From contig NZ_CP023540.1 of the NCBI RefSeq assembly GCF_003692615.1, positions 1,240,001 to 1,304,000 of the forward strand: 64,000 bases of DNA. Reading direction: 5' to 3'. Every line of letters begins with the position of its first letter. The first letter of the stretch is position 1. The DNA is from Chryseobacterium sp. 6424. GTDB taxonomy: Bacteria > Bacteroidota > Bacteroidia > Flavobacteriales > Weeksellaceae. This document shows, one piece after another, positions 953-6,673 of this stretch. The notes under the pieces are model-generated. The model had not been told where the DNA came from, ran no database searches, and saw only the letters and a list, made by a program, of their open reading frames with translations. The position numbers and the translations under genes are program-made.

Positions 953-2166
953 AGGGCATGAAGCAGACAGAGATTGGGATGATTCCGGAGGATTGGGAGA
1001 TTGCTAAACTAAAAGATATAGCGGATTTTCAAAATGGATTAGCCCATGAAAACATCGAGAGTGAATTTGGTGAATTCATAGCTGTCAATTCAAAGTTTAT
1101 TTCACAAGATGGTAAGGTGTTTCGAAAAGTGACAAAGCAACTTTTGCCGTTGTTTAATAACGATTTATGCATTGTCATGAGCGATATACCTAACGGAAAA
1201 GCTCTTGCAAAATGTTTTCTTGTCGAAGAGGACGGCAGATATACTTTAAATCAAAGGATTGGAAGGATTTCTCCAATAAAAGATTGTAGCAAGTATTTGT
1301 TTTATACTTTAAATAGGAATAAATATTTTCTTGGTTTTGATAGTGGAAGTGGACAGACAAATTTACGAAAGGATGAAGTTTTAGCGTGTCCGGTTCTCCT
1401 TCCGCCCCTTCCGGAGCAGGAGGCCATTGCCGCGGCGTTAAGCGATGCCGATGCGTGGATAGAAAGTCTGGAGCAGCTTATCGCCAAAAAACGCCTCATC
1501 AAGCAGGGCGCCATGCAGGAACTGCTGACGCCGAAAGATGATTGGGAAGTGAAGATAATTAGAGAAATTGTTGCTACTCCTGTAACTGATGGTCCACACG
1601 AAACACCATTTTTTTTGGATAAAGGAATACCTTTTTTATCTGTAAATAACATCGTTGACAATAAAATTGATTGGAGTGATTTGAGGTATATAAGTGAAGT
1701 AGATGATATAAGGTTTTCTAAGAAATGTAAACCTAGAAGAGGTGATATATTACTAGGAAAGGCTGCCTCTGTTGGTAAAATTGCAATTGTTGAAAGTGAC
1801 TATAATTTTAATATTTGGTCTCCATTAGCCTTAATAAGAATTGATGAAATTTCAAATAAATATTGTTTTTATTATTTACAAACAACAGACGTCTTAAATC
1901 AAATTAAATTCTTTACCAATACATCATCCCAAGGAAACATTGGAATGGGTGATATTGAAAAAATTGAGATAAAATATCCAAAATCCCTTTCCGAGCAAAC
2001 GCGCATTGCCACCATTTTATCGGATGTGGATGCCGAACTGGAAGCCTTGGAGCAGCAACTCCACAAAGTCCGCCAGATTAAACAGGGCATGATGCAGGAG
2101 TTGCTGACGGGGAGAATACGTCTGAACTATGATTCGTGTGAGGACTATGATGGTTACAGTTTCTGA
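946..2166 (+). CDS. hsdS: Type I restriction-modification specificity subunit HsdS
   Basis: HsdS recognises the bipartite DNA target of the type I enzyme. The ~406-residue protein has the classic duplicated layout: target-recognition domain 1 (about residues 8-150), a conserved helical spacer with LPEQEAIAAALSDAD and KQGAMQELLT, target-recognition domain 2 (about 205-345), and a second conserved spacer with EQTRIATILSDVDAE and KQGMMQELLTG. Both recognition domains are visibly AT-rich (1000-1380 and 1560-1990), while the spacers are GC-richer, as expected if recognition domains are exchanged by recombination. ATG 946 is chosen over TTG 940; ATG 958 is also possible. It overlaps the hsdM stop by 7 bases. 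After the usual ending GRIRL the protein continues for about 13 residues that are encoded by the repeat starting at 2121. Confidence 0.93.
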   Translation: MVKGMKQTEIGMIPEDWEIAKLKDIADFQNGLAHENIESEFGEFIAVNSKFISQDGKVFRKVTKQLLPLFNNDLCIVMSDIPNGKALAKCFLVEEDGRYTLNQRIGRISPIKDCSKYLFYTLNRNKYFLGFDSGSGQTNLRKDEVLACPVLLPPLPEQEAIAAALSDADAWIESLEQLIAKKRLIKQGAMQELLTPKDDWEVKIIREIVATPVTDGPHETPFFLDKGIPFLSVNNIVDNKIDWSDLRYISEVDDIRFSKKCKPRRGDILLGKAASVGKIAIVESDYNFNIWSPLALIRIDEISNKYCFYYLQTTDVLNQIKFFTNTSSQGNIGMGDIEKIEIKYPKSLSEQTRIATILSDVDAELEALEQQLHKVRQIKQGMMQELLTGRIRLNYDSCEDYDGYSF

Positions 2167-2367
2167 ACTATGATTCGTCTGAGAACTATGATGGGCTATG
2201 ATGGTTTCTGAACTATGATGTGAATGAATACTTTGATGGACTATGATGGGGTGATGTTATTTATCATAGTATTCATAGTCATCATTTCATCATAGTTCAA
2301 AGACAAGATTCATCCTAGTTCAAAGACAGGAATCATCACAGTTCAAAGACACAAATAAAAAGAAAAA
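2121..2367 (+). repeat. Repeat-rich spacer, copy A (upstream of GxxExxY gene)
   Basis: This spacer contains (i) three tandem starts of a ~41-46 base unit beginning TCTGAACTATGAT at 2121, 2162 and 2207; (ii) an imperfect inverted repeat, in which left-side GAACTATGATG and GGACTATGATGG elements face right-side ATCATAGT, CATAGTCATCAT and CATCATAGTTC elements around a centre near 2255; and (iii) three tandem 23-base units with the core AGTTCAAAGACA at about 2294, 2317 and 2340. A closely similar spacer, copy B, lies before hsdR. The left end overlaps the last codons and stop of hsdS. RNA from it could fold into a long stem-loop. Confidence 0.85.
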
Positions 2368-2378
2368 ATACAAATGTC

Positions 2379-2765
2379 ATGATTAACGAGCAGTACAAAC
2401 ATTCGGAGCTTACGGGCAAGATCATCGGTTGTGCGATAGAGGTTCATAAGCATTTGGGCAATGGATTTCAGGAAGTTGTCTATCAGCGTGCGCTGGCGAT
2501 CGAGATGCGGATGCAGGGGCTGGAGTTTGAGCGTGAAAAGGAAATGGCCTTACGCTATAAAGGACATTCCATTGGCACCCGCCGTGTGGATTTCTTTGTG
2601 GAGGGACTGATTATGGTGGAATTGAAAGCGATCATTCAGCTGGAAGATGTGCACCTGGCTCAGGCCATCAATTATCTGGAAGCCTACGGCATGGAAGTCG
2701 GCCTGCTGATTAATTTCGGAAGTAGAAGGCTGGATTTTAAGAGGGTGATGAAGCCGGGGTCTTGA
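2379..2765 (+). CDS. GxxExxY family protein (PD-(D/E)XK nuclease-like)
   Basis: The 128-residue protein has the signature that names the family, G-F-Q-E-V-V-Y (about residues 30-36), after an N-terminal helix with IIGCAIEVHKHLG. A later RRVDFFVEG...MVELKA segment (about residues 69-85) has the D...E-L-K spacing of PD-(D/E)XK nuclease folds. The biochemical role of the family is unknown to me. The gene sits between hsdS and hsdR, where no gene is normally found, and is bracketed by two copies of the same repeat-rich spacer; its TGA stop falls inside the first bases of copy B. I infer an inserted cassette rather than a functional part of the restriction system, but a nuclease-related role in the system cannot be excluded. 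Confidence 0.85.
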   Translation: MINEQYKHSELTGKIIGCAIEVHKHLGNGFQEVVYQRALAIEMRMQGLEFEREKEMALRYKGHSIGTRRVDFFVEGLIMVELKAIIQLEDVHLAQAINYLEAYGMEVGLLINFGSRRLDFKRVMKPGS

Positions 2766-2911
2766 ACTATGATTATTCTGAAGGCTATGATGGACTATGA
2801 TGGTGTGTTTTTCAATGATATTGAAATTTATCATAGTTTTCATAGTCATCATTTTATCACAGTTCAAAGACAAGTATCATCACAGTTCAAAGACACAGAC
2901 AAAAAGAAAAT
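2762..2911 (+). repeat. Repeat-rich spacer, copy B (upstream of hsdR)
   Basis: This is a second, shorter copy of the 2121-2367 spacer. It has one left-side CTTGAACTATGAT element, GGCTATGATGGACTATGATGG, the facing ATCATAGT, CATAGTCATCAT and ATCACAGTTCAAAG elements, and two (instead of three) 23-base units with AGTTCAAAGACA at about 2861 and 2884. It ends with the same AAAAAGAAAA run that ends copy A just before the next start codon. The stem can pair CTTGAACTATGAT with ATCACAGTTCAAAG. Confidence 0.85.
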
Positions 2912-2927
2912 ATATAATTTTACAAGC

Positions 2928-5900
2928 ATGATCAATCCTATCGAACGCATCACCCAAAACCGCATTATTAAACTTTTCACGGAAGAGTTGGGTTATACCT
3001 TTTACGGCAACTGGGAAAAGCGCGGGCACAACTCCAATGTGGAGGGCGAAATCCTGAAGCGCAATCTGCTGAAGAGAGGCTATTCTGAAACGCTGACGGA
3101 TAAGGCGGTGAAGGAAGTCTATGACATGGCGACCACCAATGCCGGCAACATCTATACCCGCAATAAAGCCATGTATTCGCTGCTGCGTTATGGGGTGAAG
3201 GCCAGGCCGGAACTGGGGGAGCAGTTTGATACGATATTTCCGATCGACTGGCAAAACTGGGAGCAGAATGAATTCGGTATCGCGGAAGAGGTGACACTCA
3301 CCAAAGGAGAGCATACCCGCCGGCCGGATTTGGTTTTGTACATCAACGGCATCGCAGTTGGTGTTCTGGAACTTAAACGCGGCACGACCGATGTGGCGGA
3401 AAGTGTGAACCAGTCCATCTCCAACCAGAAACTGCTGTTCAATGAGTGGTTCTATACCACGGTGCAGCTTATTATGGCCGGCAACAACACCCAGGGCCTG
3501 CGTTACGGCACCATTGAGACGCAGGCAAAATATTATCTGGCCTGGAAAGAAGATGAAGACGATAACGAAGGCTACAAACTGGATAAATACCTGAAAAAAC
3601 TCTGCGACAAAGAAAGACTTACCGACCTGATCTACAACGGGGTGGTCTTTGACGTAGGCATCAAGAAACTGCCGAGGCCACATCAGTATTTTGGATTGAA
3701 GGCGGCGCAGGACTTTGTAAAGAGAAAAGAAGGCGGAATTATCTGGCATACCCAGGGCTCCGGGAAATCACTCATGATGGTGATGCTCGGCAAATGGATT
3801 CTGGAGAATGTACCGAACTCGCGCATCGTGATCCTGACCGACCGTACCGAACTGGACGACCAGATTGAACGCGTCTTCAAGGACGTTGGCGAGACCGATG
3901 TAGCAAAGACCAAATCTGGCAGAGAATTGTTGCAGTTCCTGACCTCCTCACGGCCAAGGTTGGTCTGTTCCCTCATCCATAAATTCGGCAACCGAAATGA
4001 GACCGATTTCGATGCGTTTATCAAAGAATTGGAAGATAACCCGGTGCAGACTCAGGGCGAAATCTTTGTTTTCATAGATGAATGCCACCGTACCCAGAGC
4101 GGCAAACTGAATCAGGTGATGAAAGCGGTATTGCACAATGCGGTATTTATCGGTTTTACCGGGACTCCGCTGTTGAAGCAGGACAGAAAGACCACGATGG
4201 AAGTCTTTGGCCGGTACATCCATACCTATAAATTCAACGAAGCGGTGGAAGACGGAGTAGTGAAAGACCTCATGTATGAAGGTCGTTCCATCGAGCAAAA
4301 CCTGACTTCCCAAACCAAAGTGGATCAGTGGTTCGAAGCGAAAACGGCAGGACTAAATGATTTCCAGAAAAACGAACTGAAGAAGAAATGGGGCACCATG
4401 CAGAATGTCCTCAGTTCCAAAAGTCGTATGGAAAAAATCGTAGCGGATATCCTCATGGACTTCACCACGAAACACCGGCTGAAATCACAGATGGGGAATG
4501 CCATTCTCGTGGCATCGAGCATTTATGAGGCCTGCAAATACTACAATCTCTTCCTGAATACCGAACTGAAAAACCGCTGCGCCATCATCACTTCCTATAA
4601 TCCGAATGCCAGCGATGTTTCGCTCGAAGATACGGGTGCCGACAATGAAACTGATCGGGAGTATATTTATAATACCTACACCCAGCTACTGAAGGAAGTG
4701 AGCCCCAGCGGCAACAAATCCAAGACGGAAGCTTATGAGACAGAGAGCAAAGAGCAGTTCAGAAAAGAACCTGCCCGCATGAAGCTGCTGATTGTGGTTT
4801 CCAAACTGCTGACTGGATTTGATGCGCCGCCGTGCTCCTATATCTACATCGACAAGAAGATGCAGGACCATACGCTGTTTCAGGCCATCTGCCGCGTTAA
4901 CAGGCTGGATACTGAGGACAAAGATTATGGGTATATTGTAGATTATATGGAACTTTTCGGCAATGTGACCGATGCGATCAATGTCTATACATCTGAACTC
5001 GACTCCGAAGGTTTTACCAAAGAAGATGTAGAAATACAGCTCAAAGACCGACTTAAAATCGCCACTGACCGTCTGATGACGGCATTGGAAACAGTGGAGA
5101 GCATCTGCGAAAATGTTGCACCGCCTAAAAGTGATCTGGAATATATCCATTATTTCTGCGGAAACACCGAGAATCCAGAAGACCTGAAGGCCAATGAATA
5201 TAAACGGATGGCGCTGTACAAGGCCATTGTGGAATACATCCGCGCTTACGCCGGACTGAAGGCTGATTTTGCCAATACTTCATTCAGCGATGCGGAGATC
5301 AAACGATTCCATCGAAAGATGGAGGATTACCTGAGTCTGCGGGAAATCATCCGGAAAGCCAGTGGTGAGACCATTGATCTTAAGGCGTATGAAGCCGATA
5401 TGCGGTTTCTGATTGATACGTACATCAGGGCGGAAGAATCAGAGAACATCTCACCGTTTGAAGATAATTCCCTGCTGGATTCGATAGAGACCAATATGGA
5501 TAAAGCCATTGACACCTTACCGCCGGGGATAAAAGGAAGCCGCGAAGCCGTCGCAGAAACCATTGAAAATAATGTGCGGAGTAAGATTGTTGAAGAGCAC
5601 CTTCTGGATCCAAAATATTTTGACCAGATGTCTGTGCTGCTTCAGGAACTCATTGAGCGCAGGAAAGCCGAAACCATCTCTTATCAGGAATATCTGAAGC
5701 AAATGGCAGAATTGATCCGTCAGGTCAATCAGGGTAAGCGTGACGATATTCCGAGTTCCATCAATACCAAAGGAAAAGTAGCTTTATATCACACGCTTGA
5801 AAACGAAGAACTGGCGTTGGTCTGCGACCGTGCGGTCCAGTACGCCAAACAAGAAGGCTTTCGCGAAAACCTTGCCAAGCAAAAACTGGTAAAGAAAGCT

Positions 5901-5978
5901 ATTTTTGAGGTCGTGAAAGATGTCAACAAAGTGGAGGAAATCTACAAAATCATTGATGCCCACAAAGAGGATTACTGA
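2928..5978 (+). CDS. hsdR: Type I restriction endonuclease subunit HsdR
   Basis: HsdR is the ATP-driven translocase and nuclease of the type I enzyme. The 1016-residue product shows an N-terminal PD-(D/E)XK nuclease (RRPDLVLY near residue 131, VLELKRG near 147), a helicase core with Walker A TQGSGKS (near 275), IDECHRTQ (near 383, DEAD/DECH motif II), FIGFTGTPLL (motif III), and AICRVNRLDTE late in the second RecA domain, followed by a helical C-terminus. An ATG at 2769 lies in the same frame, but its first 53 codons only translate repeat copy B; MINPIERITQN from ATG 2928 is the typical HsdR beginning. The stop overlaps the next gene's start by one base (TGATG), so the two are probably co-translated. 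Confidence 0.95.
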   Translation: MINPIERITQNRIIKLFTEELGYTFYGNWEKRGHNSNVEGEILKRNLLKRGYSETLTDKAVKEVYDMATTNAGNIYTRNKAMYSLLRYGVKARPELGEQFDTIFPIDWQNWEQNEFGIAEEVTLTKGEHTRRPDLVLYINGIAVGVLELKRGTTDVAESVNQSISNQKLLFNEWFYTTVQLIMAGNNTQGLRYGTIETQAKYYLAWKEDEDDNEGYKLDKYLKKLCDKERLTDLIYNGVVFDVGIKKLPRPHQYFGLKAAQDFVKRKEGGIIWHTQGSGKSLMMVMLGKWILENVPNSRIVILTDRTELDDQIERVFKDVGETDVAKTKSGRELLQFLTSSRPRLVCSLIHKFGNRNETDFDAFIKELEDNPVQTQGEIFVFIDECHRTQSGKLNQVMKAVLHNAVFIGFTGTPLLKQDRKTTMEVFGRYIHTYKFNEAVEDGVVKDLMYEGRSIEQNLTSQTKVDQWFEAKTAGLNDFQKNELKKKWGTMQNVLSSKSRMEKIVADILMDFTTKHRLKSQMGNAILVASSIYEACKYYNLFLNTELKNRCAIITSYNPNASDVSLEDTGADNETDREYIYNTYTQLLKEVSPSGNKSKTEAYETESKEQFRKEPARMKLLIVVSKLLTGFDAPPCSYIYIDKKMQDHTLFQAICRVNRLDTEDKDYGYIVDYMELFGNVTDAINVYTSELDSEGFTKEDVEIQLKDRLKIATDRLMTALETVESICENVAPPKSDLEYIHYFCGNTENPEDLKANEYKRMALYKAIVEYIRAYAGLKADFANTSFSDAEIKRFHRKMEDYLSLREIIRKASGETIDLKAYEADMRFLIDTYIRAEESENISPFEDNSLLDSIETNMDKAIDTLPPGIKGSREAVAETIENNVRSKIVEEHLLDPKYFDQMSVLLQELIERRKAETISYQEYLKQMAELIRQVNQGKRDDIPSSINTKGKVALYHTLENEELALVCDRAVQYAKQEGFRENLAKQKLVKKAIFEVVKDVNKVEEIYKIIDAHKEDY

Positions 5979-6673
5979 TGAAGACCGAAGTGCTGCAGAT
6001 TGGTTCCGTAGAAATTGAGGTCAGGTTTAAGCCAATTAAGAACCTTCACCTCAGTGTGCATCCGCCGTACGGGCATGTGACTATTTCGTCTCCGGAGATG
6101 TATGATCTGGAGAAGGTGAAGATCTATGCAGCCACCAAACTCGGCTGGATCAAAAAAGAACAGAAAAAGTTCCTGACGCAGGAACGCGAAGAACCACGTG
6201 ACTTCATCACACAGGAAAGCCATTATTTTCTTGGTACCCGATACCTTCTAAAACTTATACCCGCCACAAGAAATAAAGTAGAACTTAAAGGGAAGAAACT
6301 GCTTCTATATACGATTGATCCTACTAATCCCAAACTGAACAGAAAAATATTATACACATTCTACCGTCGCGAACTTCGGAAGAAAATTTTAGAATATGTC
6401 ACGATTTACAGCCAGGAAATGGAGCTCGATGTTCCTGAGTTTAAAATCCGCACTATGAAAACCAAGTGGGGCAGCTGCGCCACCGATTCCGGAAGACTTT
6501 GGTTCAATATCGAACTTGCCAAGAAGCCTCTGGATTGTATTGAATACATCGTAGTGCACGAGATGGTGCATCTGATAGAACGAAATCACAATAAGCGTTT
6601 TGTGCTTCTAATGGACCAGTTTTTCCCGAACTGGCAGGTACAGAAGAAAGTATTGAATGAGTTGCCTTTGTGA
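5978..6673 (+). CDS. YgjP-like zinc metallopeptidase domain protein (DUF45)
   Basis: The 231-residue protein of the YgjP/DUF45 family has the zinc-binding signature HEMVH near residues 193-197 followed by a third ligand region (RNHNKRF), and the family hallmark TKWGSCA near residue 165 upstream of it. YgjP-type proteins are zinc metalloproteins of uncertain physiological role. The gene overlaps the end of hsdR by one base and is the last gene of the restriction operon. Such genes commonly accompany type I systems, so a role in turnover or processing of restriction subunits is possible, but this is inference from position only. Confidence 0.88.
   Translation: MKTEVLQIGSVEIEVRFKPIKNLHLSVHPPYGHVTISSPEMYDLEKVKIYAATKLGWIKKEQKKFLTQEREEPRDFITQESHYFLGTRYLLKLIPATRNKVELKGKKLLLYTIDPTNPKLNRKILYTFYRRELRKKILEYVTIYSQEMELDVPEFKIRTMKTKWGSCATDSGRLWFNIELAKKPLDCIEYIVVHEMVHLIERNHNKRFVLLMDQFFPNWQVQKKVLNELPL

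Follow-up and report, generated by a model that had tools for sequence, protein, structure and literature searches.

The hsdS-GxxExxY-hsdR locus was analysed within a window of 64,000 nucleotides, the whole stretch of Chryseobacterium sp. 6424 DNA under study. The three genes are co-directional, and the start codons of GxxExxY and hsdR are each preceded by a spacer of repeated units (Table 1). A YgjP-like metallopeptidase gene lies directly 3' of hsdR (window 5978-6673).

Table 1. Features of the hsdS-hsdR junction in the window (window coordinates).
Feature	Position	Strand	Basis
hsdS, type I specificity subunit	958..2166	+	PF01420
Spacer A, left units with TGAACTATGATT ends	2121-2153, 2162-2194, 2207-2239	+	direct-repeat family D2
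Spacer A, right half: ATCATAGTTC arm and 3 AGTTCAAAGACA units at 23-nt spacing	2259..2351	+	
A-rich leader 5' of the GxxExxY start codon	2352..2378	+	spacer A/B alignment
GxxExxY, 128-aa PD-(D/E)XK nuclease	2379..2765	+	TIGR04256, PF13366
Spacer B, left unit; its TGA closes GxxExxY	2761..2793	+	direct-repeat family D2
Spacer B, right half with 2 AGTTCAAAGACA units	2826..2895	+	90% identity to 2259-2328
A-rich leader 5' of the hsdR start codon	2896..2927	+	spacer A/B alignment
hsdR, type I restriction subunit	2928..5978	+	TIGR00348, 507 bits; PADLOC REase_I

Spacer A (2121-2351) and spacer B (2761-2895) are related imperfect palindromes that flank an intact GxxExxY gene. Spacer A contains three left and three right units, and spacer B contains one left and two right units. 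The 90% identity of the right halves holds over 70 nt, and in the alignment the likeness of the two spacers extends through the A-rich leader, which confirmed the common leader proposed from the sequence alone. The unit AGTTCAAAGACA occurred five times in the window (2294, 2317, 2340, 2861, and 2884) when one mismatch was allowed, and all five copies were exact; 100 shuffles of the window gave a mean of 0.57 and a largest count of 3. These copies bear out the duplicated spacer of 23-base units, three before GxxExxY and two before hsdR, described in the sequence-only reading. The TGA of the TGAACTATGATT end motif provides the stop codons of hsdS (2166) and GxxExxY (2765), and spacer A encodes, in its first left units, the last 13 residues and the stop codon of hsdS.

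The GxxExxY protein exceeded the curated cut-offs of both TIGR04256 (141 bits; cut-off 35) and PF13366 (136 bits; cut-off 22). The active-site residues of the PD-(D/E)XK fold, E32, D71, E81, K83, Q95, and Y99, were all present and were invariant across 32 aligned relatives. The structure model had a pLDDT of 94.1, and no relative in the PDB was found by sequence. PHROGs gave a single weak match to an unknown family (E 0.0006). Rfam returned nothing near a gathering score, and the best hits were weak microRNA models.

The window's genome (2.59 Mb) was searched for further copies. A search for spacer copies around other genes had been proposed; neither a second GxxExxY gene nor a further spacer copy was found in this genome. 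The five exact AGTTCAAAGACA copies of the window were the only ones, and the 22 matches with one mismatch were regarded as background because the reversed control gave 32. Seven genes of the four-helix-bundle family (TIGR02436) are present in the same genome, including one at the rfbB-rfbA junction; loci L298-L301 lie at G000:C1 488600-491037, 499665-499988, 1445389-1445709, and 1496898-1497218.

Relatives were also checked for empty hsdS-hsdR junctions, and one was found, in the distant orthologue L178, which comes from the same taxonomic order. Its hsdR is 52% identical, the preceding gene is hsdS (PF01420), and the junction is empty, with the hsdS stop codon overlapping the hsdR ATG. The two HsdS proteins are 28% identical overall, and their alignment runs up to LLTG(R/K)xRL. 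Homology stops at residue 389, equivalent to nt 2124, and the first repeat unit begins at 2121. Across the 1,600 nt read, the spacer words were absent from six closer hsdR orthologues (76-84% identical); these are not clean empty sites because a different gene precedes hsdR, such as DUF1016/YhcG in L177.

The strongest evidence for gain and loss of such inserts is the state of the rfbB-rfbA junction in the window's genus, compared by sequence in 36 of 36 genomes. The junction was empty in 15, carried GxxExxY in 8 and a four-helix-bundle gene in 10 (among them the window's own genome), and had other contents in 3. The empty junctions, in 15 species, had a 1-nt gap in 14 and an overlap in G001. 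In occupied junctions, a repeat-wrapped ORF stood between the rfbB stop codon and the rfbA start codon, and a Pfam check confirmed the cargo in 18/18 cases (8 PF13366 and 10 PF05635). The three other contents were an unrelated ORF in two genomes and a 95-nt stretch in one; the unrelated ORF, of about 158-168 codons, occurred in G025 (L324) and G016 (L335). Some copies were damaged: GxxExxY was internally shortened in G002, and the helix-bundle frames were partial in G020 and G021. Compared with the empty junction of G035, a 512-nt insert replaced 6 nt in G020, with flanks of 98.3% and 95.7% identity. The sister genomes G017 and G026 carried different cargo. No target-site duplication was evident at rfbB-rfbA, but the edges there fall in a 1-nt gap.

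Similar occupation was observed at other junctions. Downstream of lpxH, an intact GxxExxY gene was present in 4/30 loci (30 of 36 genomes), and in 5/30 loci the next ORF started within a span from 17 nt upstream to 4 nt downstream of the stop codon. One methylase junction in two other families contained GxxExxY in L261 and a helix-bundle gene in L263; the downstream genes were 74% identical, and the right end motif encodes their opening residues, MNHSSD. Two of the 30 helix-bundle loci had no ORF at the centre and were excluded. According to the phage table of PMC5524665, guanylate kinase and a nucleotide adenylyltransferase flank a four-helix-bundle gene in both Flavobacterium columnare strains; from that table, this gene looks like another junction cassette.

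The states of rfbB-rfbA could also be produced by homologous recombination of the host. The cassettes themselves would then be immobile, and flanking genes exchanged between species, such as rfbB and rfbA, would carry the insert along. On the rfbA tree (30 of 36 genomes), junction states needed 14 changes compared with 14.1 after shuffling, and such a lack of clustering is expected under frequent exchange. The cassettes of G024 and G034 were 99.5% identical, compared with 92% for rfbA and 94.7% for rfbB, a pattern compatible with conversion and with movement alike. However, an initial insertion is needed anyway, related cassettes stand at different gene junctions, and host phylum changes 14 times among the 74 named loci, many of which come from metagenome bins, so that some may be misplaced contigs. 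Host recombination alone is a serious possibility, yet we rate it somewhat below an even prospect.

The architecture of the arms was investigated next to the folding of the spacers. Spacer A gave a predicted RNA fold of -78.9 kcal/mol (z -4.0; 0/200 shuffles as good), and spacer B gave -39.4 kcal/mol (z -2.85; 2/200 shuffles as good). In 40 ORF-free palindromes of the GATT type, neighbouring words were 9 bp apart in 128/178 cases, 8 bp in 40, and 10 bp in 10, the count somewhat favouring 9 since this spacing was tried first. Nuclease cassettes at rfbB-rfbA had a word period of 9, and helix-bundle cassettes had a period of 8 at rfbB-rfbA and 7 elsewhere; the wider set of GxxExxY flanks gave small period peaks only. 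In 44 linker pairs of GATT-type ORF-free palindromes, the match between arms was 0.388, compared with 0.391 (sd 0.029) for shuffled partners. Since the linkers paired no better than chance, an RNA stem is probably not the conserved object. The ratios of G.T to A.C mismatches in four sets (40/41, 49/66, 13/8, and 21/26) likewise left a conserved stem unsupported, though the window's own spacers leaned slightly towards G.T (3 G.T vs 1 A.C each). What the arms conserve, judged by these comparisons, is a series of phased words, 8-10 bp apart and arranged as inverted repeats, and probably not an RNA stem. The initial idea of an intervening element folding into long stems was borne out in part: both spacers fold better than their shuffles, but the long stem did not stand as the conserved object.

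These results also bear on an RNA-level explanation, by which the palindromes would act as hairpins in the mRNA, controlling how the operon is expressed or processed, and would have been copied by local duplication. The folding of both spacers, their position directly before start codons, and the slight G.T lean in the window are in line with it. It is nevertheless unlikely in view of the linker and mismatch counts, and copies were also found outside operons.

Nuclease relatives were collected by protein similarity alone, and 80 of 156 confirmed relatives were used; 7/141 loci were excluded, having no recognisable GxxExxY ORF. In many relatives, GAACTATGA occurred shortly upstream of the ORF and TCATAGTTC directly downstream. 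The named loci with a phylum numbered 74, with 60 from Bacteroidota and the rest from Spirochaetota, Nitrospirota, Chlorobiota, Balneolota, Ignavibacteriota, Pseudomonadota, and candidate phyla. With an inverted-repeat score of 14 as the threshold for bracketing, repeats of at least 14 surrounded the GxxExxY ORF in 42/78 named, 21/29 related, and 20/26 phylum-sample loci, compared with 10/439 control ORFs taken from the same loci at a distance of 450 nt or more. The score was below 14 in 36/78 named loci. In L249, from another family, the order hsdS-palindrome-GxxExxY-palindrome was the same as in the window.

The arm words of related loci differed and included CACAGAG, GCAAAGA, and ATTCG, among others. 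Arm classes were assigned by a fixed rule, with words picked after many of these loci had been inspected. On a tree of 135 proteins, 45 belonged to the GAACTATGAT class, 25 to the GAACCATGAT class, and 44 to a CACAGAG-like class, and 21 were unlabelled. Arm class required 7 changes on this tree, compared with a shuffled mean of 51.5 (0/200 shuffles as low), although the tree has few columns and near copies inflate the clustering. The split between GATT types and the rest was a single change with 99% support. In these sequences, arm and end type follows nuclease clade.

ORF-free copies lay in intergenic positions, alone or as tandem arrays, and some were in genomes in which no GxxExxY gene was detected. 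Copies of 64, 82-83, and 92 bp were present within one genome, which fits the variation in unit number that had been suggested. Across 296 genomes, co-occurrence of the palindrome pattern and GxxExxY was weak (45 with both, 27 with the pattern only; p 0.03). Thus 27/72 pattern-bearing genomes had the pattern without the gene; 10 of these had at least 2 matches, and single matches per genome are near control level. These 27 genomes are compatible with GxxExxY being a passenger and a different enzyme, for example a REP-associated (HUH) transposase, mobilising the palindromes in trans. An ORF upstream of hsdR in L173 (768-1415) and L176 (758-1414) has a PNHIHG motif and presumably resembles a REP-associated tyrosine transposase; it is accompanied by the palindrome AGACGGGGCATGCCCCGTCT, and its position points the same way. 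Against this explanation, which we find improbable, arm type follows nuclease clade, the L173 ORF gave no match in Pfam, and its palindrome is unlike those of the window's cassette.

Both neighbours were co-directional with GxxExxY in 57/68 named loci. The stop codon of the upstream gene lay inside the left end motif in 24/60 GATT-type loci, compared with 9/303 control ORFs. By Pfam, type I specificity domains occurred in 14/65 upstream and 14/67 downstream neighbours and N6 methylases in 13/65 upstream neighbours; these counts omit 6/71 upstream (5 antisense and L128) and 8/75 downstream neighbours (antisense). Restriction genes are common neighbours, not the rule. Cas4 domains occurred in 3/65 upstream neighbours and Cas1 in 4/67 downstream neighbours, which places the cassette among CRISPR genes as well. 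That GxxExxY is an ordinary working part of restriction operons is very unlikely despite these frequent specificity and methylase neighbours, as many neighbours, including rfbB-rfbA and lpxH, are unrelated to restriction and PADLOC gave no match for GxxExxY.

The results suggest that genes wrapped in repeats are gained and lost at gene junctions and form a type of mobile element that has drawn little notice. Region 2121-2927 is probably a site occupied by a mobile intervening cassette, similar in action to an rRNA intervening sequence but located between protein-coding genes and able to carry a nuclease. The mobile or duplicated cassette first proposed for this locus gains support from the empty L178 junction, the like ends in other phyla, the rfbB-rfbA states, and the presence of the intervening-sequence protein at rfbB-rfbA. 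The lack of a second copy in the window's genome and of a clean empty site among the six closer orthologues speaks against it, as do the 36/78 named loci below the repeat threshold and the weak co-occurrence of pattern and gene, and no target-site duplication was seen. Insertion at junctions appears well supported by the comparison of repeat-bracketed ORFs, arm types matched to clades, empty and occupied junctions, different cargo in sisters, and ORF-free copies.

A cassette would consist of one small ORF and arms of short words every 8-10 bp in inverted orientation. It would settle in the gap separating a gene's stop codon from the following start codon. Its left end would supply stop codons closing the upstream gene, and its right end and leader would stand immediately before the next start codon. 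Related cassettes carry, in place of the nuclease, the four-helix-bundle protein known from 23S rRNA intervening sequences. ORF-free palindromes may be relics or non-autonomous copies, and arm units may multiply or drop out. We infer autonomous movement and a part of the nuclease in it: the nuclease would bind and cut its own word arrays, and repair of the cut would copy or swap the cassette. Host recombination could also swap cassettes.

A broader claim, for which the case is nearly balanced and which we put forward tentatively, is a class of mobile junction cassettes whose sole gene would be a GxxExxY PD-(D/E)XK nuclease or an Avd-like four-helix-bundle protein. The protein would read its own arms, in which words recur at a fixed spacing of about 9 bp (nuclease) or 7-8 bp (helix bundle), the cassette would insert between neighbouring stop and start codons, and rRNA intervening sequences would be one corner of the class. 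If true, one mobile-element architecture would unite two abundant uncharacterised families of small proteins, GxxExxY and the S23 four-helix bundle, as its genes, and the nature and mobility of rRNA intervening sequences would become directly testable. The rfbB-rfbA junction offers a ready natural experiment, with close relatives empty, nuclease-bearing, or helix-bundle-bearing. For annotation, the ends of hsdS, rfbB, and GxxExxY are read from element arms.

In the open-access literature on GxxExxY, PF13366, intervening sequences, helix-bundle proteins, palindromes, and REP, no description of a junction cassette was found by these searches, and matches to GAACTATGATT were unrelated by their titles. 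The TAACTGA heptamer repeats treated in part of PMC4679880 lie upstream of start codons, in Bacteroidetes too, with suspected horizontal spread. They share with the cassettes short phased words right before start codons; however, they are mostly direct repeats, and that part of PMC4679880 makes no link to GxxExxY or helix-bundle genes. Among MITEs and their parent insertion sequences, too, forms with and without an ORF share the same ends, but the cassette lacks any known type of transposase and no target duplication was seen. Homing endonucleases cut the empty allele at the insertion site; for the cassettes, empty alleles exist at rfbB-rfbA and hsdS-hsdR. REP/RAYT systems consist of extragenic palindromes around a single-copy gene, with the repeat type matching the enzyme type. 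GxxExxY cassettes likewise have palindromes around a single gene and matched arm and enzyme types. In contrast, their gene encodes a PD-(D/E)XK protein with PF13366 as the sole Pfam match and not an HUH (Y1) transposase, and their arms are phased words, whereas REPs are short GC-rich hairpins.

The 23S rRNA intervening sequences, in the part of PMC4990558 that describes them, have a small ORF between inverted repeats, variable-number short repeats before the ORF, and sporadic spread, and their means of movement is not known. Like these sequences (PF05635, TIGR02436), the window's element has terminal inverted repeats around a small ORF, and helix-bundle cassettes use the rfbB-rfbA site as GxxExxY cassettes do. 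Excision from the transcript by RNase III is a further hallmark of intervening sequences. The window's element is not a member of this group because it lies outside rRNA, between the protein genes hsdS and hsdR, and carries another gene, a GxxExxY nuclease in place of the S23 four-helix-bundle family. Of the elements described so far, the rRNA intervening sequence comes closest, and the window's element seems to work like one.
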